This document shows positions 1 through 9,703 of a stretch of DNA of 9,820 nucleotides, one piece after another; positions within the stretch are counted from its first letter, which is position 1, and every line of letters begins with the position of its first letter. Below the pieces are notes generated by a model, which saw only the letters and a list, made by a program, of their open reading frames with translations, was not told the DNA's origin and ran no database searches. The translations under genes were made by a program, and so were the position numbers. Where the stretch lies: assembly GCA_947564305.1 (NCBI GenBank), contig CANOBT010000188.1, forward strand, positions 1 to 9,820, given 5' to 3'. The stretch comes from an uncultured Lachnospiraceae bacterium. GTDB lineage: Bacteria > Bacillota_A > Clostridia > Lachnospirales > Lachnospiraceae.

Positions 1-156
1 ACATACGTCCGTTTCTACATTAGCTGTCAATTCACTGATATTCGGTTCATCATTCTGAGCGATATCTGCTGCCGACACGCAAGCCGGCAGACTCCAAGCC
101 ATAGCCATAGCCATGAGCAATGCCGGACATCTCTTTGATCTCTGCCTTATTGTCAT
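1..156 (-). CDS. Secreted protein, N-terminal part only (signal peptide; cut by window edge)
   Basis: A minus-strand frame opens at an ATG at 156-154 and stays open for 52 codons to the window edge. A textbook AAGGAGGTG ribosome-binding site sits at about 162-170, which fixes the start. The N-terminus has the three parts of a Sec signal peptide: a basic start (MTIRQRSKR), a hydrophobic stretch of Ala, Met, Leu and Trp (about residues 11-24), and a small-residue cleavage region (ACVSAAD, probably after Ala29 or Ala30). A Cys at residue 26 in LPAC resembles a weak lipobox, but Pro at -2 is unusual, so ordinary signal peptidase I cleavage is favoured. The mature start is acidic and polar. The rest lies outside the window and the function is unknown. 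It lies directly downstream of the proposed guide-RNA region and in the same direction, so it could be affected by read-through or be a regulatory target; this is inference. Confidence 0.75.
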   Translation of the reverse strand, partial: MTIRQRSKRCPALLMAMAMAWSLPACVSAADIAQNDEPNISELTANVETDVC

Positions 157-232
157 ATTGCACCTCCTTATATCCAAAGCCTTTTCTCAAATAACCGTCC
201 TTTAAATAATAAGGAATATATACTAAATTTTC

Positions 233-266
233 AGCATCTTTTACTCTTTAGTATAGATGCTTTTTT
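233..266 (+). terminator. Rho-independent terminator-like hairpin, plus-strand polarity
   Basis: A perfect 7-bp stem, AGCATCT (233-239) with AGATGCT (255-261), encloses an inner TACT/AGTA pairing and is followed by a T-run at 261-266. On the minus strand the sequence after the hairpin is GAAAATTT, which is a much poorer terminator tail, so polarity is plus. No plus-strand gene ends here. It may block antisense transcription, mark the 3' side of the guide-RNA region, or be residual. Confidence 0.55.
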
Positions 267-518
267 AATAAGATATATTGGTCACCCTTGCCGGGTGATG
301 CGGCTTACGCCGCTTCGCTCCCTGCTAGATCATGACCATGCCGCAACTCTGAAAGCTGCAACACGCATTTTCATGTTCACAGGGTCTTGGCCTACCCAAT
401 ACACAGACTTATAAGGAATCATCCTCCATCTGCCTTCTAATGCCGTATTGTGTTTTTATATCATGAACGCACTCTTTTAGTCCTTGCGGTAAAATCCCGG
501 CTCATCACCGGTATTTAT
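262..518 (-). ncRNA. Candidate omega/guide RNA of the nuclease-dead TnpB-like protein
   Basis: TnpB and TldR proteins use an RNA that overlaps or follows the 3' end of their gene, with a scaffold first and the guide at the extreme 3' end. The DNA after the TnpB-like stop fits this. In minus-strand order it contains a 6-bp stem with one G-U pair (359-354 with 348-343), a GCGGC-GTAA-GCCGC hairpin closed by a GNRA tetraloop (313-300), and a TCACCC-GGCAA-GGGTGA hairpin (298-282). Longer-range pairings such as CAATAC with GTATTG (around 398-403 and 445-450) are also possible. The sequence just after the last hairpin, from about 279 to 260 on the minus strand and starting AATATATCTTATT, would be the guide. 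Boundaries are estimates, because neither the 5' end nor the exact scaffold-guide junction can be set without homologues or RNA-seq. Expression could come from the TnpB-like transcript, and so from the invertible promoter. Confidence 0.45.
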
Positions 519-1844
519 CTAAACAGCCGTTCTTATGATCGTCTTTCCCGATTGCCCCCGCTTTTTTACATTGCGGGCAGTATTTATCTTTTCATCATCC
601 TGATATCCGCACACCCCGCAGAAAAATAACCCGTCTGTCTTTTTCCCTGCCGCTCCGCACTTACTGCACTCGCGGCTGATATCTTTCCCAAGCACCTCCG
701 CAATCTCAACCGACTGCTCCCTGCACTTTTGCTCCAGACGCTTCCGGATATATCCTCTCTGCCACCGGGAGACAGAATAATTGATATTCTTGTTAACGCC
801 ACCGCTCTGCGGCTTTGGAAGCTTTACCATATAGATGAGCCCCGGCTTTTCCTGGCTCAGGAAACGGTTCAGTTCCTGATTGATATAGCTGTGGAGCCGC
901 TCCTCCATCCGCCGTTTTCCTGCATGATACTTCTTGCGTCCTGAATTCGCCTGCTTATTGCGGCTATATATCTTCGCCTGCATACGCACCCAGTCAGAAT
1001 ACTCCGCCTGATACTTCCCAAGCTTCTCCCCATAGCAATGCCCGTTATCCGTCGTCAGCATCGTATACATACCCAGCGCCACCCCGACACACTCCTGATA
1101 GTCCGCATGACGGCGCACCGCAACCTGGACCGGCACTTTGATCTCCAACCTCTGCTCTTTCGGATACAGCTTGATGTAAAGCTGACAGCCATACCGGTTA
1201 TTATCCGTCAATGGGATAAATACACGCTTTCTCTTTTCCTTTATCGCGATGTAAATCCCCTGATCCGCATACCGATAAGCTCTCTCCGATATAGAAAACC
1301 CATCCGCCATATCTGTGTGCAGCTTTACCTGCGCCTTTCTCACCTGTCTGCGCAGATAGCGGTGCAAATGTTCTGTCTCTACCGCTCCTGCCAGTTCTTC
1401 GTATTGCTTCTGTACCTTCTTTGTAAGCTCTACTGGATTCTGATTCAAAACAGCATCAAATGCATTATTAACCTTGAGCAAAAACCGCAGATAATGCTTT
1501 TCCTCAGCCGAGAAGCATTCATTTTTATTGATAAGCTGTCTCAATCTGGTCTTTGTCCTGGTCCACCGGCACTTAATGTCTCCCAAAGCATCAAAAACCG
1601 CGAGATAAAAATAGACAGAAGGAAGCCCTAACTTTTCCCGAAAGCCGCTGTCTGTCATCTCATTCTGCACGGTATAGCCCGGATAAAGCTTGCTTAAGCT
1701 TCCAATCCCTCCAAAACGGGCATATACATAGTTCTTTACTTTCCGGTAATCTTCCGCAATCTCCAGAAGTTTTCCCATATCTTCTTCTGAAACCAGCCCC
1801 TTGCTATACTGATGGACGGTCTTGCATATCTTTTCCGACGGCAT
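519..1844 (-). CDS. Nuclease-dead TnpB-like (TldR-like) predicted RNA-guided DNA-binding protein
   Basis: The frame opens at an ATG at 1868, but the better start is the ATG at 1844: GGAGGGG lies 8 nt before it, while the upstream ATG has only an adjacent CAGG. That gives 441 aa; residue numbers below count from the 1868 ATG. The C-terminal half aligns by eye with TnpB/OrfB: a RuvC-I strand (VGVALG, 261-266), a RuvC-II strand (LIYMVKL, 344-350), the conserved helix before the zinc ribbon, CSKC/CGVC zinc ribbon (401-420), and the RuvC-III motif DDEKINTARN (424-433). In active TnpB these motifs carry D, E and D; here the aligned residues are Ala264, Val348 and Lys427, so all three catalytic acids are gone while the fold and zinc ligands remain. 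That pattern is the hallmark of TldR proteins, which bind DNA through a guide RNA and repress transcription without cutting. Residues 1-250 are helical and basic, fitting the WED/REC lobes. An invertible promoter lies upstream and a structured RNA candidate downstream. Targets are unknown. Confidence 0.82.
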   Translation of the reverse strand: MPSEKICKTVHQYSKGLVSEEDMGKLLEIAEDYRKVKNYVYARFGGIGSLSKLYPGYTVQNEMTDSGFREKLGLPSVYFYLAVFDALGDIKCRWTRTKTRLRQLINKNECFSAEEKHYLRFLLKVNNAFDAVLNQNPVELTKKVQKQYEELAGAVETEHLHRYLRRQVRKAQVKLHTDMADGFSISERAYRYADQGIYIAIKEKRKRVFIPLTDNNRYGCQLYIKLYPKEQRLEIKVPVQVAVRRHADYQECVGVALGMYTMLTTDNGHCYGEKLGKYQAEYSDWVRMQAKIYSRNKQANSGRKKYHAGKRRMEERLHSYINQELNRFLSQEKPGLIYMVKLPKPQSGGVNKNINYSVSRWQRGYIRKRLEQKCREQSVEIAEVLGKDISRECSKCGAAGKKTDGLFFCGVCGYQDDEKINTARNVKKRGQSGKTIIRTAV

Positions 1845-1890
1845 TACCCTTTCCCCTCCAGTATGCATCCTGCAAAAGACGCCGCATTTT

Positions 1891-1912
1891 CAAAAGGTGT
1901 ACTTTTTGGAAA
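1891..1912 (+). repeat. Left inverted repeat, probable serine-recombinase crossover site
   Basis: This 22-bp sequence, starting CAAAAGGTGTAC, is the exact reverse complement of 2021-2042. It is itself almost a palindrome: TCAAAAGGTG and TACTTTTTGG match around a centre at 1899/1900 with GT as the asymmetric central dinucleotide. Two half-sites meeting at an asymmetric 2-bp core is the architecture of crossover sites used by small serine recombinases such as Hin and Gin. It lies between the promoter and the TnpB-like ribosome-binding site, so it is transcribed as part of the leader in the present orientation. Confidence 0.75.
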
Positions 1913-2020
1913 TAGAAAATTCTATCCAAAGTCTTAACCATTCTATTATATTATCGGCAATTCGTCAACAAAATTAATGTCATTTCCATTATAATCCACG
2001 AAATTATAAAAGTAAACTAT
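1913..2020. mobile_element. Predicted invertible 108-bp promoter segment (phase switch)
   Basis: This AT-rich segment is bounded by perfect 22-bp inverted repeats, carries one good promoter, and lies next to a serine recombinase gene. Site-specific inversion between the dyad centres would flip about 134 bp. In the orientation shown the promoter points left into the TnpB-like gene (ON). The flipped form would point right, into a plus-strand terminator at 2047-2068 and antisense to the recombinase 3' end (OFF). Only one orientation is seen here, so inversion itself is inferred. An alternative is that the repeats are operator or resolution sites without inversion, but inverted orientation favours a switch. 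Confidence 0.65.
1940..1968 (-). promoter_or_regulatory. Sigma-A type promoter inside the invertible segment
   Basis: On the minus strand a -35 box TTGACG (1968-1963) and a -10 box TAGAAT (1945-1940) are separated by exactly 17 bp. Each box matches consensus at five of six positions. Transcription would start near 1933, cross the left repeat and enter the TnpB-like gene. No comparable plus-strand promoter was found in the segment, so flipping should switch the gene off rather than merely swap promoters. Confidence 0.7.
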
Positions 2021-2042
2021 TTTCCAAAAAGTACACCTTTTG
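2021..2042 (-). repeat. Right inverted repeat, probable serine-recombinase crossover site
   Basis: This is the exact 22-bp reverse complement of 1891-1912. Read on the plus strand with the next base it holds the 20-bp near-palindrome CCAAAAAGTACACCTTTTGG at 2024-2043, in which 8 of 10 base pairs are symmetric around the central AC (2033-2034). It ends only 4 bp before the terminator hairpin at 2047. Confidence 0.75.
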
Positions 2043-2046
2043 GCAA

Positions 2047-2068
2047 CTTCCAAAATGGAAGCTTTTTT
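2047..2068 (+). terminator. Plus-strand terminator abutting the right crossover site
   Basis: A 6-bp stem, CTTCCA (2047-2052) with TGGAAG (2056-2061), has an AAA loop and is followed by C and six T (2063-2068). On the minus strand the hairpin is followed by TTGCC, so it should not stop the recombinase message efficiently. No plus-strand gene needs it. It would stop transcripts from the invertible promoter once that promoter is flipped to face right, protecting the recombinase gene from antisense RNA. Confidence 0.6.
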
Positions 2069-2090
2069 ATTTCTGAGAATCTTCCATATA

Positions 2091-2699
2091 TCAGCCTTTC
2101 AGCTGGTTCTTATATTTCCTTGCTCTCCGATAAAAGGTCGTTACAGCCAGATTGCATTGTCTCGCCGCCTCGGCTCCCGATATTTCCTTGATCATCCATT
2201 TATTACAGATCTGACTAAAATTTTCCGGCATCGGCTTTTCAGGTCTTCCAAACTGCACGCCCCGCCGCTTGGCCGCCTCGATACCCTCCCGCTGTCTCTG
2301 CCGGATATTTTCCCGCTCATTTTCAGCGACAAACGAGAGCACCTGCAACACGACATCACTCAAAAATGTCCCCATCAAGTCTTTCCCCCGGCGGGTGTCC
2401 AAAAGCGGCATATCCAGTACTATGATATCCACTTTATTTTTTTTCGTCAGAATCCTCCATTGCTCCAGGATTTCCCCATAATCACGCCCCAGACGGTCAA
2501 TACTTTTTATGTACAGCAGATCTCCCCGCTCTAGTTTCTTCAGCATTCTCTGATACATGGGACGCTGGAAATCCTTTCCGGACTGCCTGTCTATATAGAT
2601 ATTCTTTCTCGGCACCCGCATTTCACTTAACGCAATCAACTGCCTGCCTTCGTTTTGTTCTCTGGTGCTCACACGCACATAGCCGTATACCTTTCCCAT
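2091..2699 (-). CDS. Small serine recombinase (resolvase/DNA invertase family)
   Basis: At 202 aa this is the usual length of the Hin/Gin/Tn3-resolvase group. The N-terminal catalytic domain begins YGYVRVSTREQ, with Ser11 as the nucleophile and Arg9 beside it. The DRLGRDY motif at 68-74 supplies further active-site arginines, and the long E helix runs through about 125-147 (ENERENIRQRQREG). The motif GVQFGRP at 147-153 leads into a C-terminal helix-turn-helix at about 165-198 (SGAEAARQCNLAVTTFYRRAR). The ATG at 2699 has AGGAGG 5 nt upstream. IS607 TnpA, the usual serine-recombinase partner of TnpB, has its DNA-binding domain in front of the catalytic domain; the order here is the opposite, so this is an invertase/resolvase type. 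It most likely acts on the repeats at 1891-1912 and 2021-2042. A passenger resolvase from another element is the alternative. Confidence 0.9.
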   Translation of the reverse strand: MGKVYGYVRVSTREQNEGRQLIALSEMRVPRKNIYIDRQSGKDFQRPMYQRMLKKLERGDLLYIKSIDRLGRDYGEILEQWRILTKKNKVDIIVLDMPLLDTRRGKDLMGTFLSDVVLQVLSFVAENERENIRQRQREGIEAAKRRGVQFGRPEKPMPENFSQICNKWMIKEISGAEAARQCNLAVTTFYRRARKYKNQLKG

Positions 2700-2788
2700 C
2701 TGTACCTCCTGTAATTTAAGATTTTCAAAATTGTTTTCAAAGACTTCTCTTTACAGAATAAGTGTACAGAGGAACGAGGGAAAGAATC

Positions 2789-2835
2789 AAAAAATCTGAT
2801 GTAAAATATGACATTTCCATACTTTACATCAGATT
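2789..2835 (-). terminator. Rho-independent terminator for the 2845-6982 transcription unit
   Basis: A perfect 13-bp inverted repeat (AATCTGATGTAAA at 2793-2805 with its complement at 2823-2835) has a 17-nt loop. Read on the minus strand it is followed by a T-rich tail (six T at 2794-2789). It lies 10 bp after the pseudogene stop codon and closes the minus-strand transcription unit ahead of the recombinase gene. Confidence 0.8.
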
Positions 2836-2844
2836 CTTACGCTA

Positions 2845-3602
2845 TCACACTACCGCTTCCACTATTGTCTTATCCCCAACTCTTACAGTCTTTACCCCCG
2901 TTTCTTTCCTCTTATTAAAATTAAAACTGAGCATATACCCTCGCTCGTTATATTCATTTCCATGCCAAATCTTCATTTCTATAATAAATTGTTCCCCTGC
3001 GTATTCCACAATTATATCCGTTCTTCTGGCATCTCTGGTCTGTGCCTCCACATAATAATTACCCGTTCCGTTGATAATCGGTTTCAAATACAGCAAGAAA
3101 AATAAGAAAACATCTCGCTGTTCAGCGATTCTTCCGCCACGAACAGCTCTAACAGATACATCTCAAAAATCCGATTAGCTATCACCACACTACCATTCTC
3201 TTCTTTCAGAAAACCAAACATACGTCCCAGATTCATATACTTTTCAGCAGGGCTTAACGCTGTCTGCTTTCCCTGAAACAGTATTCTCTCCACTACACTT
3301 CTTAGCTTCTTAAATTTATCTAACTGCCTGATTTTTGCAAATGCACATACAAATGTCCCTGCATCCGCAAATTCTTCTGTACTGATACCCTGGAAATCCA
3401 TTGACACAACAAGATACTCACCTTTCAAGTATTCCTCCAATGCTCGAAGGGTTGTCGTCTTTCCATACTGTCTTCCTCTATTGATAACAAAATATTTTCT
3501 ACGGTCCACATACAGCCTTTTAATATTTCTCAGCCTGTCATCAAGCCGTACCATATAATGCTCATCCGGCCTGCACACCCCTTCAGTATTAAAGTACCGC
3601 AT
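2845..3602 (-). pseudogene. Decayed AAA-ATPase/PD-(D/E)XK nuclease family gene (DUF1703 type), several deletions
   Basis: Two overlapping frames carry pieces of one recognisable family. Frame 1 (3602-3084, 172 codons) holds the family's N-terminus (MRYFNTEGVCRPDEHYMV), an intact Walker A (NRGRQYGKTTT) and the end of the ATPase domain (MFGFLKEENGSVVIANRIFE). Frame 2 (to 2845) holds the C-terminal nuclease core, with TDIIVEY and the EMK catalytic motif. From memory of intact members, which are about 500 aa or longer, the Walker B and sensor region between KIRQLDKF and the MFGF block is deleted. Some 50 residues are missing at the frame junction near 3084-3106, where a deletion also shifts the frame, and about 15 are missing between NEYNERG and YMLSFNF. 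Little or no function is expected. The family is multicopy in Clostridia and of unclear role. It lies 37 bp after the three-gene cassette and ends at a terminator. Confidence 0.85.
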
Positions 3603-3639: not shown

Positions 3640-4596
3640 TCAATGATATTTTACTGTCGGAAGTTTATGCCCTACATGCCCTATATAAATAATCTTCTTT
3701 TCCGGAACTGGATGAAAAAAGATTCGTCCCGCATAACTTCCTGTAAATCTTGTATGCCAGGAAAATATTTGTGTACTACCATCCGGGAGCGAAAATGTAT
3801 GTTCTTCCGAAAAGCGCTTTAGTGTTGCTTCAGATTCCGGAGTTGCTTTTGGCAATAACTCTTTATCAAACTTCTTTTCCATCACTTCCGCTGTTCGCTG
3901 TAATTCTAACAGCCGCTTATACACTTGTCCCGCTTCCGACACCCCTACATCCTTTTTACAACCTTGTACTGCATTATCGCAGAATATGAGATTCGGGAGC
4001 ATTGTCTTCACACTTCCCAGAACGTCCTGACCTGATATAATCCCCGTATACTGCCATTCTTCCCGTTTTTGTTCATAAAAACCTTTAAAAGCTTTTATGT
4101 TCTCTTGAAAGGATACATTCGGAACCTTAACCAGGTGTTGTTCTAGCTCACCATCATCAGAAAGTTCTAAATAACTCCCCTTAATTTCCGATATTTTCCA
4201 ATGTTCGCTGCTTAAGAAACTGACTGTCACACCATCCATTTCATAAGCCAGAAGACAGCCTTTTGACGCTTGCTCCTCATGGAGAAATTCCGTTCTGAAA
4301 TCACTTTCTTTTTCCTGTTCAAATTTTACGGAATTATATATAGCCGATTTATTTAAAAGTGCACGAAATCTTCTTTTGTTTTCCAAATCCACCGTGGGAT
4401 CATTCCTCCATCGTTCTATCCGATATTCTCGTGCCAGTTCAAAAGACCTATAATCCTGATCCAACAAAATACTATCATTATGTATGATTTTCTTTACTTC
4501 AAAGCAAGTATCTAAAAAAGAATTCATAATCTGTTTGCCATCTTCTATTGCTTCAACTGGAAACCTGGCTGACAGATCGTTCATTATCATTTGCAT
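3640..4596 (-). CDS. Unrecognised 318-aa protein, third gene of the DUF262/ATPase cassette
   Basis: I do not recognise this family. The ATG at 4596 has AGAGGA 8 nt upstream and lies only 12 bp after the ATPase stop, so the genes are co-transcribed. The protein is soluble, with no signal peptide or membrane segment. It is charged and mixed alpha/beta by eye, with a helical N-terminal half (ELAREYRIERWRNDPTVDLENKR in the region of residues 53-75) and a long Lys/Glu-rich helix around 225-260. The last 45 residues stand out: SWHTRFTG, GRIFFHP, then IIYIGHVGHKLPTVKYH. The pattern of RI-F followed by IGHVGHKLP looks like a compact beta-rich domain with conserved His residues. It faintly recalls RelE/ParE-type toxin ends or other small nucleic-acid-acting folds, but I would not assign it. 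Context suggests an effector or partner of the ATPase. Confidence 0.85.
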   Translation of the reverse strand: MQMIMNDLSARFPVEAIEDGKQIMNSFLDTCFEVKKIIHNDSILLDQDYRSFELAREYRIERWRNDPTVDLENKRRFRALLNKSAIYNSVKFEQEKESDFRTEFLHEEQASKGCLLAYEMDGVTVSFLSSEHWKISEIKGSYLELSDDGELEQHLVKVPNVSFQENIKAFKGFYEQKREEWQYTGIISGQDVLGSVKTMLPNLIFCDNAVQGCKKDVGVSEAGQVYKRLLELQRTAEVMEKKFDKELLPKATPESEATLKRFSEEHTFSLPDGSTQIFSWHTRFTGSYAGRIFFHPVPEKKIIYIGHVGHKLPTVKYH

Positions 4597-4608
4597 TATA
4601 TCATTCCT

Positions 4609-5718
4609 CTAAAACAAATCATCAATCGCTCTATCCCATTCGTCAAAGAATCCGGCCGGCCAAAAACTAAGTCTCCCATCTATATTTAGAATAGGGTTTT
4701 CTATTACAGGTATTATCTTATCTTCACCAGATTGTTCCAATCTTCTTCTGGTAAAATAATATAACTGCACAAGCTCCGGACTAATCTTTTCATTTTTAGC
4801 ACTTAACCGTATCCCATTCAATATATGGTCACTATGGGTTTCCACAATAACTTGTACACCGCCTTGAGCTGCCCTTGCAATTAATTCACCCATTTTTCTT
4901 TGGCCTTTCGGATGAAGATGAGCTTCCGGATTTTCTAAAATCAATAATTCTCCGCTTTTTGCCTTTAATAAAGCCAAAACAACCGGAAGTACATAAGAAA
5001 TTCCAAATCCTACATTTTGCGCCGTATAATAATCTGCTCCGACACCGCCTTCTTGATGTACCGTAAGTCCTATTCGATTACTATGTCCATAATCCTCCAT
5101 ACGAAGAGAAATACCCGGTGTAATCTCCCCCATCCAACATTCCACCTGTCTTAAGAGACGTATGTTTTCTTCCCCATCATACAAAATACTCTCATTTTCC
5201 ACATCTTGCAGCTCATGTGTCTGAAGATAATGCACTGCATACTCACCATGATTCCCTACTTGTTTATTCTCCCATACTTCATAATACGACTTCTCATAAC
5301 TGCTTTGAGGACCTAATCGATCTGCAGCTATATAATTAAAGCCATCCCCAAATAAATTCATGTCTCGCATTGCCTCTGCATTAATCGTACTAGTCAGTCT
5401 TAGAAAATCCGATGCTCCATTATAATCGTATTCCGCACATAAATAATCTTGTCCATCTTCAACTAAAATACATATTTTATTTTCTTTTGCATCCGTATAC
5501 AGAACATCTTTTCCAACTCCGAGATTTGTATATTTTCCATTTAAATATATCCCTTTTTCCAATGCGTTTTGTTCATAGGATTGTCTTAATAAAAGAAGCA
5601 TCTGAATCACTGTGGATTTCCCCATGCTATTAACACCTGAAAATAAATTCAAATTCGAAAGTTCCAAAGAAATATGTTCAAAACATTTAAAATTGGATGC
5701 TTCAATCTTTCTTATCAT
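4609..5718 (-). CDS. AAA/ABC-type ATPase with C-terminal DUF3696
   Basis: This 369-aa protein starts IRKIEASNFKCFEHISLEL, the usual opening of RecF/SMC-like (AAA_15/AAA_21) ATPases. Visible motifs are Walker A GVNSMGKST (28-36), the AADRLGPQ block (131-138), an ABC-signature-like NVGFGISYVLPVV (235-247), Walker B with its family tail LLILENPEAHLHP (258-270), and the H-loop ETHSDHI (293-299). The tail DGRLSFWPAGFFDEW (348-361) is the DUF3696 signature. All motifs are intact, so it should bind and hydrolyse ATP. Such ATPases, related in architecture to OLD and GajA but without a Toprim domain, are common sensor or motor subunits of multi-gene phage-defence systems. The ATG at 5718 has AAGGAGG 7 nt upstream and overlaps the DUF262 gene by 17 nt, implying translational coupling. 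A sequence-level family name beyond DUF3696 cannot be given. Confidence 0.93.
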   Translation of the reverse strand: MIRKIEASNFKCFEHISLELSNLNLFSGVNSMGKSTVIQMLLLLRQSYEQNALEKGIYLNGKYTNLGVGKDVLYTDAKENKICILVEDGQDYLCAEYDYNGASDFLRLTSTINAEAMRDMNLFGDGFNYIAADRLGPQSSYEKSYYEVWENKQVGNHGEYAVHYLQTHELQDVENESILYDGEENIRLLRQVECWMGEITPGISLRMEDYGHSNRIGLTVHQEGGVGADYYTAQNVGFGISYVLPVVLALLKAKSGELLILENPEAHLHPKGQRKMGELIARAAQGGVQVIVETHSDHILNGIRLSAKNEKISPELVQLYYFTRRRLEQSGEDKIIPVIENPILNIDGRLSFWPAGFFDEWDRAIDDLF

Positions 5719-6982
5719 TCAGAATCCTCCTTAACATATGATTCATATACCCAAAACGCAGCGAGAATGACTTTTTATCACTCGCCTTAAGCACTTGTAA
5801 AAATACGGAATTACTACAAAGCTCTAAAAACTGCTTATATACTTTATTCTTGTTTTTCACCAGTATATTTATTTCCGAATCTTCCAAAATAAATATATTT
5901 CTGCACCACGCTTCATAAATCGCCTTATTGATTGGACGGCGTATACCATCTTCTCCTAATTTTCGGAATGCATATTTCCCCATAATTCGTTTTGATGCAA
6001 TCATAACTCTTTTAAACTGGTACTCTATGTCTGTTTCTTTTGCACAGTCTTTTGAATTCAAATATTCCATCGCCCCGTTCAGATAGTTATCCAAAATCCC
6101 TTCATATTTATCAGTTCCATAATAACAGACTGCCACAAAGCGAAGTACAAACTCTTGATCCATCATCCGGTCATCCCGTATGCTGTATGTAGTCGCCTCT
6201 TGAAATTCCGGGAATCTTGCAAACTTTTTGCATAATTTTGTTGCTGCCCCTTGATATAAGGCATGCCGTATCTCCTGCGGCTTTAATTCCAGTCCGCCTG
6301 TATTAATTCTTTTGAAAATATTATACTTTACATTTGCAGGCGTCCCCCCTTTCACAATATATGCAATAATATTGGTCTCATCTATGCGCCTCGCAAATGT
6401 TCTCGGCAGTTCGTTAAATTTCAATCCATTTAAGTCCTGATAAAACTCTAGTCCCGTAAGTTCTAATGTCTCATCTACTACAAATTCTTTCAAAGCAGTA
6501 ATTCTTTGCAAACCATCGATAATCAGCCAATTGTCTCTATCCCCTCCATCAAAATAAAAAGCCGGAATTGGTATGCGCAGGAGCAAAGATTCTATTAATT
6601 GGCTTTTCTGCACTTTTGTCCACAAACCACTCTTCCGTTGAAAATCTGTATTCATATTGATCTCATCGTACTCTAAACGCTTGATAATGCTGGATAATTC
6701 CATGGTTTTCATGTCAATGTCTATTTTACTTGGGTCAAATGGCCGTATTTTCGGCATTAAGACATCTTCATCCTCCGCCTCAACCTCTAATGCATCATTT
6801 ATTACTTCTATCTCTGCTCTTTTCAGATAATTTATAATTTCATTGTATGTGCTTTCTGTCTGTTTTTCTGACGGAATTCCCACGAAATAATTTGTGATAA
6901 TCATAGAGCTAAGCTTCCCTGCCTGCTTTTTTCCCATTTCCACTAACAAATCTAAATCTTTCTTTTCTCTTTCATTAAACAT
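5702..6982 (-). CDS. DUF262 (ParB/Srx-like) domain protein, first gene of the defence-like cassette
   Basis: The 426-aa protein shows the DUF262 landmarks in order: TDFQRKSGLW (112-121), where the family usually has a FQR-x2-3-W block; IIDGLQRITAL (154-164), which carries the DGxQR signature related to ParB/sulfiredoxin nucleotide chemistry; and INTGGLELKPQEIRHAL (226-242). The first 80 residues are an acidic, probably helical extension (EVEAEDEDV). The rest after about 260 is helical with many basic residues. DUF262 proteins include GmrS-type subunits of modification-dependent nucleases and components of several anti-phage systems, so a nucleic-acid-sensing or nucleotide-hydrolysing role is plausible. 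There is no HNH (DUF1524) tail here, so it is not a complete GmrSD enzyme. The ATG at 6982 has AGGAGA 6 nt upstream; the ATG at 6986 is followed at once by a stop. It overlaps the ATPase gene by 17 nt and is driven by the promoter at 7024-7052. Confidence 0.92.
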   Translation of the reverse strand: MFNEREKKDLDLLVEMGKKQAGKLSSMIITNYFVGIPSEKQTESTYNEIINYLKRAEIEVINDALEVEAEDEDVLMPKIRPFDPSKIDIDMKTMELSSIIKRLEYDEINMNTDFQRKSGLWTKVQKSQLIESLLLRIPIPAFYFDGGDRDNWLIIDGLQRITALKEFVVDETLELTGLEFYQDLNGLKFNELPRTFARRIDETNIIAYIVKGGTPANVKYNIFKRINTGGLELKPQEIRHALYQGAATKLCKKFARFPEFQEATTYSIRDDRMMDQEFVLRFVAVCYYGTDKYEGILDNYLNGAMEYLNSKDCAKETDIEYQFKRVMIASKRIMGKYAFRKLGEDGIRRPINKAIYEAWCRNIFILEDSEINILVKNKNKVYKQFLELCSNSVFLQVLKASDKKSFSLRFGYMNHMLRRILNDKKD

Positions 6983-7302: not shown

Positions 7303-8517
7303 TTAAATATTTTTTTTACTATATAGGTCTAATGTTTCAAGAGCAGGTGAAACCCATACAATTTTGTTTTCAGGCACTCCCATATCAAATAAATCCTTTT
7401 TTATACTAGCAGCAACATTCTTCTCCAAGACAGCAATCAAAATTTTATCATAGCTAATATCATATATTGTTTGTGGTGATTTCACTAATTCAGGATACTC
7501 ACAAGACGTATGATTTCGCGCAACCCAAGCACATACCTTGCAATATTTTGTTGTTATTATCTGTCTGTAATAAACAACCCCTACCTTACCTGCTCCATAT
7601 ATTACAATTTCCGAATCTTTATTTATTTGAGAAAAAGGGAAAATAAATGATTCAACCATTTTATATTCATCATAACTAAAAACCCCCAATTCTGTATAGA
7701 TGTGTTTTAATAAAAACCACCTCATTTGAAAAGGAAACTGCTTTTCTAATACATTCTTCCAATAGGGGCTAGACATAAACTGACGTTTTAGACCATTAAA
7801 CAAATATGAAAACCTTTCAAAAGCTCTTGAATCATACCCAACCGCCACAGAATCACTTCGTATTCGATGATGATATGGCGCTTCTTCTAAAATTACCATA
7901 CATTTTACCTCCAAGATAACGGAATAAATAAATGCATGATCCTCACCGTCCCAAATCCTGTCATCTACATCATATTGATACTTTTCAACAATACTTTTTC
8001 GTAACAACTTGTCCCAACAAGCCGGTGATAACCCCCATTTTCCGATTTTTCCCACATATAGCATTTGTCCAAATACTTCTTCTACAAGTTTCGACTCTCT
8101 ATAAACACCTGGTGTAATATAATTTTCTCTAATAACTTCATATCCGTCGCAAGACTCCTGATGTGCCGTAACGACCATATCTGCCTGATGCTTTTCGGCT
8201 TTTTCCCACATCAATTCATACATATTGGGTTCAATCCAATCATCACTATCCACATAAGCAACCCATTCTCCCTGCGCAATCTGCAGGCCTGCCTTTCGCG
8301 CTGAAACAAGTCCTCCATTTTTTTTATGAATAACCCGAATACGCGAATCCATTTTTTCATATTCATCACAAATCAATCCACACATATCCGGAGACCCATC
8401 ATCCACTAATATAATATCAAGATTTTTATAAGTTTGATTTATAATGCTATTAAGACATTGTCGCAAATATTGCTCAACTTGATATATTGGAACAATAATA
8501 CTTATTAAAGGTTTCAT
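7303..8517 (-). CDS. Family 2 glycosyltransferase with C-terminal Rossmann-like domain
   Basis: The N-terminal GT-A domain is clear: ISIIVPIYQVEQYLRQCLNSI (5-25) is the nucleotide-sugar-binding start, ILVDDGSPD at 36-44 holds the first acidic pair, and YVDSDDW (88-94) is the metal-binding DxD. The later GED (191-193) is the usual region of the catalytic base. After a linker a second domain begins at about 302 with IVIYGAGKVG (304-313), a Gly-rich Rossmann turn, followed by DKILIAV; such tails occur in glycan-synthesis enzymes and may bind a nucleotide or partner. It should transfer a sugar to a cell-surface polysaccharide or glycolipid on the cytoplasmic side of the membrane. Acceptor and sugar cannot be deduced. 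The ATG at 8517 has GGGAG 8 nt upstream and is 4 bp from the methyltransferase stop, so they form one operon. No terminator is visible after the stop at 7303. Confidence 0.93.
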   Translation of the reverse strand: MKPLISIIVPIYQVEQYLRQCLNSIINQTYKNLDIILVDDGSPDMCGLICDEYEKMDSRIRVIHKKNGGLVSARKAGLQIAQGEWVAYVDSDDWIEPNMYELMWEKAEKHQADMVVTAHQESCDGYEVIRENYITPGVYRESKLVEEVFGQMLYVGKIGKWGLSPACWDKLLRKSIVEKYQYDVDDRIWDGEDHAFIYSVILEVKCMVILEEAPYHHRIRSDSVAVGYDSRAFERFSYLFNGLKRQFMSSPYWKNVLEKQFPFQMRWFLLKHIYTELGVFSYDEYKMVESFIFPFSQINKDSEIVIYGAGKVGVVYYRQIITTKYCKVCAWVARNHTSCEYPELVKSPQTIYDISYDKILIAVLEKNVAASIKKDLFDMGVPENKIVWVSPALETLDLYSKKNI

Positions 8518-8521
8518 CCTT

Positions 8522-9703
8522 CTAACTCCCTTTCTGTAATCTTTCTATGCTAAAACCTTTTGGTATAAGGAAATAATTCAAACTTCCGCATAAATTTTTT
8601 TCCTCAAAGGCCTTTTCCTCATAATTCCAGTACTTTATAGAATATTTATAAACTGTATTTACAAACTTGCAAATCACCGACTGCTGATGAATATTGTTAT
8701 ACTCAAGCAAAATCAATGGATGATATTTTTTAATTGTTTCTCTCATACCGTGAATCACTTTTTCTTCAAATGCTTCCGCATCTATTTTGACAAAAAAGAC
8801 AGGCTTTTTAATATTCTTTACCATTTCATCAACAGTCTCAACCGGAACCTCCTTCTTAATCAACCCAGTTTTAGAAAAATTACATGCCGATGCTCGTGCC
8901 AATGCCCTTTCTTGAAGAAAACTCGCTTCCTCAGAGTATTCCTTTTCAAAAGCCGGAACAAAAAATGACAATTGACCACAGATGTCACCAGCTCCTTTAT
9001 TTTCTATGCGCATTCTTCCTTTTCCAAAATTTCTTTGAATCAATTGTAAAGATTCAAGTAAATTAATTTGTGGCTCTACTGCAATAACATCCATTTTTGT
9101 CAATTTCAAAAAACTTAAAGAACTCTGCCCAAGATTTGCCCCAATATCTAAAATTGTACCATTTGTAATATCACCGAACATTTCCAAAAAAGAATAATCT
9201 TTTTCATGATATCTCTGATTGGAGCAATATATTAAATTATTAATAAGACCTTGCTGCAATTTTGCCGAATGCATATCTTTGATTTCCTGAAGTAAACAAC
9301 CATCTTCATATCGAGTTCCTAAAAAACAGCTATGATTACCCAATATAGATATTTTCAAAACAACTTCGTCTGAATCCAATGAAAGTTCTAAACTTTTTAT
9401 GTTTTCCCATTTTCCATCAAAAAGGATCTTATTTGTTCCAAGATCTATGATTTGACCCTCTGCTTTTTGGGTTATATCGTTCTGAACAAACACTCCATAA
9501 GGAAATATATCAAGCATTAAAATTTTCCCCCAGCATTTACATACCTTTACAATAATTTCTCTTCTGAAATTATTCTGGTACCAGTCTTTTACTATTTTAA
9601 AATGCTCGGATGTAACTAACAAATGGTGCATTTTTTCGAACTGGTCATGTATCAGTAAGCCGGATAGTCTCGCAGGTAATATTTTATTCAATGGTATTTC
9701 CAA
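8522..9703 (-). CDS. FkbM-family SAM-dependent methyltransferase (start uncertain, probably longer)
   Basis: The 393-codon frame has an FkbM methyltransferase core in its C-terminal half: GTILDIGANLGQSSL (182-196) is the SAM-binding glycine loop, VIAVEPQINLLESLQ (206-220) carries the acidic residue that holds the ribose, and FVKIDAEAFEEKVIHGM (304-320) with LILLEYN (329-335) are the family's later motifs. It should O-methylate a sugar or other small group in a surface glycan, matching the glycosyltransferase 4 bp downstream. The listed start is a TTG without a ribosome-binding site. The frame continues upstream as protein-like sequence, so this TTG is probably not the true start; see 9704-9820. 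The first about 140 residues look like an extra domain of unknown role. Confidence 0.8.
   Translation of the reverse strand: MEIPLNKILPARLSGLLIHDQFEKMHHLLVTSEHFKIVKDWYQNNFRREIIVKVCKCWGKILMLDIFPYGVFVQNDITQKAEGQIIDLGTNKILFDGKWENIKSLELSLDSDEVVLKISILGNHSCFLGTRYEDGCLLQEIKDMHSAKLQQGLINNLIYCSNQRYHEKDYSFLEMFGDITNGTILDIGANLGQSSLSFLKLTKMDVIAVEPQINLLESLQLIQRNFGKGRMRIENKGAGDICGQLSFFVPAFEKEYSEEASFLQERALARASACNFSKTGLIKKEVPVETVDEMVKNIKKPVFFVKIDAEAFEEKVIHGMRETIKKYHPLILLEYNNIHQQSVICKFVNTVYKYSIKYWNYEEKAFEEKNLCGSLNYFLIPKGFSIERLQKGS

Follow-up and report, generated by a model that had tools for sequence, protein, structure and literature searches.

The contig CANOBT010000188.1 of an uncultured Lachnospiraceae bacterium (assembly GCA_947564305.1; its 9,820 nucleotides are referred to below as the window) carries a compact module of a serine recombinase gene, an invertible promoter, a gene for a nuclease-dead TnpB-fold protein, and a structured noncoding RNA (ncRNA), which probably specifies a TldR-like RNA-guided repressor that is phase-varied by promoter inversion and acts on sibling surface operons. 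On the minus strand, the order is recombinase (positions 2091-2699), promoter within an inverted repeat (1891-2042), tnpB (519-1868), RNA (267-541), and an open reading frame (ORF) that starts at position 156. All four parts named in a preliminary description of this DNA (recombinase, inverted repeats with a promoter, TnpB-like gene, and structured noncoding DNA) are present, and its proposal of a phase-variable RNA-guided regulator is supported by inversion among relatives, retention of the repeats, the dead catalytic triad, and a guide-like sequence with matching sites next to a target-adjacent motif (TAM); none of the three outcomes that it had named as refuting was observed. For comparison, the best 80 of 172 confirmed loci in genome contigs, mostly of Lachnospiraceae and often several per genome, were fetched.

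In the proposed mechanism, the serine invertase would flip a promoter cassette of ∼110 to 120 bp between two dyad sites. When facing tnpB, the promoter would transcribe the dead TnpB, a structured guide-RNA scaffold of ∼260 nucleotides (nt), and the surface operon behind them, whose cotranscription is suggested by the lack of a predicted minus-strand terminator in positions 1-2800 (where pattern counts are near chance). The protein, which keeps the TnpB/Cas12f fold but has lost the cutting residues, would carry a guide starting with ATRTRYYTTATT and bind matching DNA after an AAGTWT-like TAM, either in the leaders of sibling operons for surface proteins and sugar-nucleotide or glycan enzymes or, alternatively, in the codon stretch for a Y-I/V-P-Y-F motif in a glycerophosphotransferase-like gene. 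We infer from the sequences that protein and RNA would form a ribonucleoprotein that binds DNA and represses, and likewise which locus would repress which. A guide of mRNA sense such as this one would pair with the template strand, and it is in that orientation that dead Cas12a blocks elongation most strongly (∼330-fold versus ∼6-fold or none; PMC5460296). By analogy, a roadblock mechanism, whether in leaders or in ORFs, is plausible; according to PMC13418256, TldRs have targets inside fliC ORFs and a seed comprising guide nucleotides 1 to 6. The variable guide positions here are 3, 5, 6, and 7, most of which (3, 5, and 6) fall within that seed. The outcome would be a heritable on/off surface program, in which a locus in the ON state represses its siblings while mismatches protect its own operon.

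The tnpB-like gene (positions 519-1868, minus strand) more likely starts at the ATG at position 1844, yielding a protein of 441 amino acids, since this codon is preceded by GGAGGGGAAAGGG and the sequence that follows matches the family consensus MPxxKICK. The product has the TnpB/Cas12f fold with an intact Zn ribbon (PF07282, E value of 5.9e-8), as do the TldR proteins. In an alignment of the window protein with the 120 best of 1,679 relatives, all 121 sequences have A/S, V/M/A, and K at the three RuvC positions, which bears out the proposed loss of all catalytic residues; relatives retaining D/E/D were looked for and none was found in this set. The E-to-V and D-to-K replacements were assigned by aligning a profile with a Cas12f chain of known structure, and the D-to-A replacement rests on the GIDLG motif of RuvC-I. 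Such loss throughout the set is typical of TldRs, and the active RuvC of an IS607 transposon is absent. Despite the dead triad, the gene is conserved over its whole length, the Zn ribbon and numerous other residues being invariant. Together with the compensatory changes in the RNA (see below), this conservation shows selection on both protein and RNA and argues against plain phase variation, in which the promoter would switch the surface operon only and the dead TnpB and RNA would be decaying passengers from a transposon. That explanation appears very unlikely, even though the inversion and the surface cargo are the best-supported parts of the system.

The structured, guide-RNA-like ncRNA (positions 267-541, minus strand) begins inside the 3′ end of tnpB, and its scaffold ends with GGGTGACCA. 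In most loci, the span from the end of tnpB to the conserved GATGACCA is roughly 230 to 460 nt, with a maximum of ∼720 nt. The scaffold end was found by pattern in 78 of 81 loci, one of which (L042) was a false match, and both ends were located in 74 ncRNAs (77 minus L035, L060, and L076), 40 of which entered the structure alignment. The 54 pairs predicted on these 40 loci are paired in 96.2% of cells, and two-sided changes occur in 36 of the 54 versus 19.3 in shuffles, none of the 500 shuffles reaching any of the five measures used. The structure is real, far beyond chance, and, as in TldR loci, a conserved scaffold stands behind the gene; the preliminary description was right about structured noncoding DNA but had placed it within positions 519-2699, whereas most of it lies outside that interval. 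A known RNA family was ruled out, since Rfam gave no match at E values of up to 1 in positions 1-3000. A pseudoknot joining the guide-like 12-mer to the scaffold was also rejected: no convincing covarying partner column was seen, and the variable guide positions showed no pairing-type covariation with any scaffold column. A motif scan of 10 genomes for stand-alone scaffolds gave no sure case without TnpB: each of the 24 zero-mismatch matches belongs to a TnpB locus, and the one-mismatch matches are partly other TnpB loci and partly background, including the repeated GTAGCGGCGAGCGAAAT.

The switch itself is a 108-bp segment (positions 1913-2020) enclosed by the perfect 22-bp inverted repeats that the preliminary description had reported around a promoter. 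Recombination site 2 (positions 2021-2043, with its 22-bp arm at 2021-2042) contains the dyad CCAAAAAGT-AC-ACCTTTTGG, and site 1 (positions 1891-1912) is its inverted copy, identical in 22 of 22 positions and without the outermost dyad base. Direct reading shows the half-sites CCAAAAAGT and CCAAAAGGT flanking the AC core in the arms, and crossover sites of serine recombinases have this shape, a dyad around a short core. The promoter TTGACG-17-TAGAAT (positions 1940-1968, minus strand; TTGACG at 1963-1968 and TAGAAT at 1940-1945) faces tnpB, so the window is in the ON orientation; a second promoter-like match, TTTACT-17-TATAAT (positions 1988-2016, minus strand), faces the same way. The number of promoter-like matches in positions 1-2800 (7 versus 5.2 by chance) carries no above-chance signal, and the support for TTGACG-TAGAAT comes from its recurrence in other loci, a fuzzy match finding it reversed in 27 of 81. 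Just outside site 2 lies a weak terminator-like hairpin (positions 2047-2061, plus strand; 4 found versus 2.0 in shuffles), which would face the promoter once flipped to OFF.

Paired sites 110 to 155 bp apart, with up to two mismatches in the cores, were found in 55 of the 81 loci, and none were found in upstream regions shuffled in 20 rounds or in same-length stretches inside tnpB. The promoter in these 55 loci is in the OFF orientation in 31 and in the ON orientation in 13, with no call in 11; the motif scan of all 81 loci gave 27 OFF, 5 ON, and 49 without a call. The flipped orientation is present in two pairs of related loci, L002/L008 (segments 96.6% identical over 117 nt, with a tnpB-side flank that is 93% identical) and L066/L069 (98.3% over 117 nt; flank, 79%); the members are paralogues or related loci, so that orientation was compared between loci. 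At that level, both orientations occur, as in Hin/Mpi-type switches. Pairs with L055 and L019, which carry long palindromic assembly artefacts, were set aside, yet these two loci were kept in the orientation counts. In L019, L021, L036, L049, L050, and L055, the recombination sites bear long palindromic joins, probably assembler traces of both orientations.

The recombinase (positions 2091-2699, minus strand) is encoded by an ORF of 202 codons. Its assignment to the invertase-type serine recombinases, already made from the bare sequence, is confirmed by a match to PF00239 (E value of 1.8e-28); direct reading reveals YVRVSTREQ and DRLGR, motifs of this family, and a helix-turn-helix-like region was seen by eye at the C terminus. 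As in Hin/Mpi-type systems, this resolvase-fold protein adjoins the inverted sites in the window. It scored 46.5 bits against the equivalog model of Bacteroides Mpi (NF009949; cut-off, 272) and 18.5 bits against that of IS607 TnpA (NF033518; cut-off, 110), well below both thresholds. Among relatives of Sporofaciens musculi, close relatives of the recombinase (E value of ≤1e-60) were found in 10 of 11 TnpB-positive genomes and in 24 of 105 others (Fisher P of 1.4e-5, uncorrected for kinship; genome G089, with a weak hit at an E value of 2e-5 and 27% identity, was counted as TnpB-negative). The recombinase may accordingly serve several cassettes in trans, as Mpi does.

Guide sequences were compared in 84 loci (the 81 minus L013, L049, and L075, which lack a scaffold end, minus the false match L042, plus 7 others). 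The scaffold is followed by 12 guide-like nucleotides of the form ATRTRYYTTATT, and conservation fades by about position +18. In the window, the first 12 nt of the putative guide are ATATATCTTATT (positions 267-278, minus strand), and the guide may extend to about position 261. The leader of the next gene contains a TAM-like GTAT (positions 220-223) followed by a target-like core, ATATTCCTTATT (positions 208-219; whole element, 208-223, minus strand), which has 2 of 12 mismatches to the window's own guide and occurs as a guide in other loci. Exact non-self matches to the 12-mers in the 81 loci number 46, whereas 20 shuffled sets average 10 and reversed and complemented guides give 11 each. In the stretch 8 to 250 nt past the scaffold, the 84 loci yielded 16 exact sense matches, 15 of them directly after GTNT, and no antisense matches, while 300 shuffled guide sets gave a mean of 0.18 exact leader matches and a maximum of 3; for TAM-flanked exact 12-mers, the shuffle mean is 0.007, and the correspondence of guide and target expected of a TldR is thus seen at the sequence level. 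With a degenerate TAM-plus-core pattern, 23 leader sites were recovered from 18 loci, the opposite strand yielding none. Conservation of GTNT and parts of the core in these sites is fixed by the search pattern, and the pattern-free positions agree too (both -6 and -5 are A, and -2 is A or T). The DNA of the own guide is preceded by ACCA or a similar sequence, with GTNT in none of the 84 loci. Judged by sequence, the leader elements look as a TAM plus target should. A genome-wide scan for such elements with up to 2 mismatches was discarded (31 matches versus 22 in controls), exact matches alone being informative.

The same elements could be viewed as RNA or transcription signals instead of guides and targets. 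The dead TnpB would then bind its own nascent RNA and serve the following operon in cis as an antiterminator or attenuator, similarly to UpxY in Bacteroides. Such a model would fit the position of the RNA, which separates tnpB from the next genes wherever the scaffold end was found, the layout of an invertible promoter and a first-gene regulator, which resembles that of the Bacteroides capsule loci (PMC7315117), and the overlap of the window's leader element with a weak promoter-like match (positions 206-234). It is doubtful, given that the leader elements share the 12 nt found directly behind the scaffold, with GTNT replacing the preceding scaffold letters in 15 of the 16 exact matches, and that the matching stretch is also found inside a coding region.

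That coding region belongs to a glycerophosphotransferase-like gene that homology places behind tnpB in 40 of 77 loci. Its MRKAQKK protein received no name from Pfam or NCBIfam; the designation is based on the presence of PF04464 in 10 of its 120 listed relatives (2 of the 10 were rescanned) and on a GT-B-like structural model (mean predicted local distance difference test score of 89.6), the best matches of which are UDP-GlcNAc 2-epimerases with template-modeling scores of 0.36 to 0.54. In such loci, the guide-matching stretch consists of the codons of the conserved Y-I/V-P-Y-F motif. A leader site and a coding-range site were never found in one locus (0/84), and leader sites translated in frame resemble KVYVPYL, as if they were mimics of the coding target. 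The proline codon of the coding site is CCT in 19 of 45 cases versus the 8.5 expected from the gene's own usage (simulated P of 1e-4; one of nine codon tests, uncorrected for kinship).

These patterns allow a wider, more tentative view of a genome-wide, phase-variable, RNA-guided identity switch, in which the 12-nt guide of each ON locus would block sibling leaders or glycerophosphotransferase genes. The own operon would escape through synonymous or single-base differences and the own guide DNA through its missing TAM, and a new surface operon would join the network once its leader had acquired a mimic of the coding target. Three leader sites of S. musculi match the guides of other resident loci over 12 to 15 nt.

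Several observations weigh against repression of sibling operons. Exact matches to the own guide are absent from the 60 leader and coding sites versus 2.2 expected (P of 0.09, not significant), which also agrees with the cis-acting model, and three sites (in L005, L010, and L031) are one base off the own guide. In genomes with at least 2 loci (39 sites, 19 of them intergenic), 5 of the 19 intergenic sites match a resident non-self guide versus 3.0 expected (P of 0.13), so significance was reached neither for self-avoidance nor for within-genome matching. Mutual exclusion among loci is therefore only suggested, as a hypothesis and not as a result. Neither kind of site lies within 2.7 kb in 29 of 84 loci. 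Own coding-sequence sites differ from the own guide at 1 to 4 of 12 positions, and the match could be aided by protein conservation; codons -2 (34 versus 22.1) and +6 (41 versus 27.5) show a similar excess of A/T-ending forms, so that the codon signal extends beyond the core. Many second leader sites, with the core ATGTATTWTATT, match no resident guide. Finally, no more than 8 of the 80 fetched loci have the recombinase adjoining tnpB (some contigs end early); elsewhere, it would have to act in trans. The ATGTATTWTATT core or a near variant defines a class of leader sites in L001, L002, L003, L004, L005, L006, L008, L015, and L021; such sites stand second in tandem in several loci, and no guide found in the same genome matches them.

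The low rate of resident matches among leader sites (5/19) is also what would be expected if the module worked by isoform replacement, with little cross-talk: arriving by phage or other transfer, its guide would silence a homologous resident gene, as TldR-FliCP reportedly silences flagellin upon arrival of its module. Target-like sites are also borne by TnpB-less surface loci in Acetatifactor muris and Schaedlerella; L180 and L183 are surface loci with MRKAQKK genes and two TAM-plus-core sites each, the fetched parts of which lack a TnpB scaffold. Moreover, a 41.5-kb viral contig (L237, positions 4111-11213) carries a module behind an endolysin gene, consisting of an invertase, a 28-nt inverted repeat (93%), a promoter, a TnpB relative with 51% identity, and an RNA that was recognized by eye after being missed by the motif scan (guide-like end, CTGTGCCTTATT), followed by an MRKAQKK (glycerophosphotransferase-like) gene, a cytidylyltransferase/oxidoreductase fusion, and GDPD; it parallels the phage-borne flagellin TldR. 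Yet this is a single viral contig, its TnpB had no match in 50,697 phage records, phage carriage as a rule was rejected on these grounds, and 7 of 11 TnpB-positive genomes contain several chromosomal copies of the module. Isoform replacement seems on balance unlikely, although it overlaps with repression of sibling operons and the likelihoods of the two are not additive to one.

The genes behind the RNA are consistent with a surface role. Among 81 first or second genes (of 93 listed), a Pfam tally that leaves out the glycerophosphotransferase-like genes counted 7 sugar aminotransferases, 6 nucleotidyltransferases, and 3 IspD-type cytidylyltransferases, besides glycosyltransferases, epimerases, and capsule-synthesis families; many genes have no Pfam family, and some products appear by eye to be secreted. 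Crude CsrA or flagellin motifs were found in none of 82 scanned loci. In the window, the next gene of the putative operon (positions 1-156, minus strand), noted by direct reading since it is below the size of the ORF list, encodes 52 codons of a signal-peptide-like product and is cut by the window end.

Upstream of the switch, two ORFs (positions 2845-3602, minus strand) resemble one decayed AAA-ATPase-like gene, akin by eye to positions 1842-3011 of L107, which lie beside a TAM-plus-core element in Acetatifactor muris. Three consecutive genes (positions 3640-6982, minus strand) match the PADLOC models NsnC (4e-62), NsnB (5e-114), and NsnA (1e-119), with most matches covering almost the whole model, and form a candidate antiphage defense operon. 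Genes for a GT2 glycosyltransferase and an FkbM methyltransferase (positions 7303-9703, minus strand) indicate a glycan-type neighborhood.

The preliminary description treated a system in which an invertase switches a dead TnpB as undescribed. The csrA-tldR flagellin loci have since been described with that arrangement, including hin genes upstream and ∼120-bp inversions in Flavonifractor plautii, with further cases in Oscillibacter (PMC13418256), and novelty is narrowed accordingly. The window system is of the same kind, with other cargo: both combine a dead TnpB and guide RNA with an upstream invertase gene and an invertible promoter segment of ∼120 bp, and the csrA-tldR loci likewise number several, are predicted to cross-target flagellin genes, and have targets inside ORFs. 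Compared by description, the cargo there is flagellin and csrA versus surface glycan and surface-protein operons here, and leader sites mimicking the target are a feature of the present loci only. The text of PMC13418256 contains no occurrence of Lachnospir-, capsul-, or polysaccharide, and among the matches listed in searches of open-license papers, there was no other TnpB- or TldR-based surface switch.

Wiegand and coworkers are said to have reported in 2024 that TnpB homologues were exapted as RNA-guided transcription factors (TldR-FliCP and the oppF TldR). These share with the present system the lost RuvC residues, a scaffold behind the gene, a TAM, and nontransposon cargo; the phase-variable promoter and the other cargo set the present loci apart, again by description. 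IS607 and IS605 elements share the TnpB family, and IS607 the serine recombinase as well, but a remnant of either was ruled out by the recombinase model score and the dead triad, with promoter inversion instead of transposition. UpxY and UpxZ of Bacteroides are not known to be RNA-guided. The likeness to the Mpi/UpxY/UpxZ systems lies in the way of working, the recombinase falling short of the Mpi cut-off: these have invertible promoters at several surface loci, a first-gene regulator (UpxY) that prevents premature termination, and cross-locus repression by UpxZ of nonadjacent loci (PMC7315117).

If true, this reading would supply many natural guide/TAM/target pairs for the dead-TnpB roadblock and would extend TnpB-derived RNA-guided control from flagellin and transport to the surface glycans and proteins of gut Lachnospiraceae; it would also show how these bacteria could achieve, with unrelated parts, a coordinated surface switch like that of Bacteroides.

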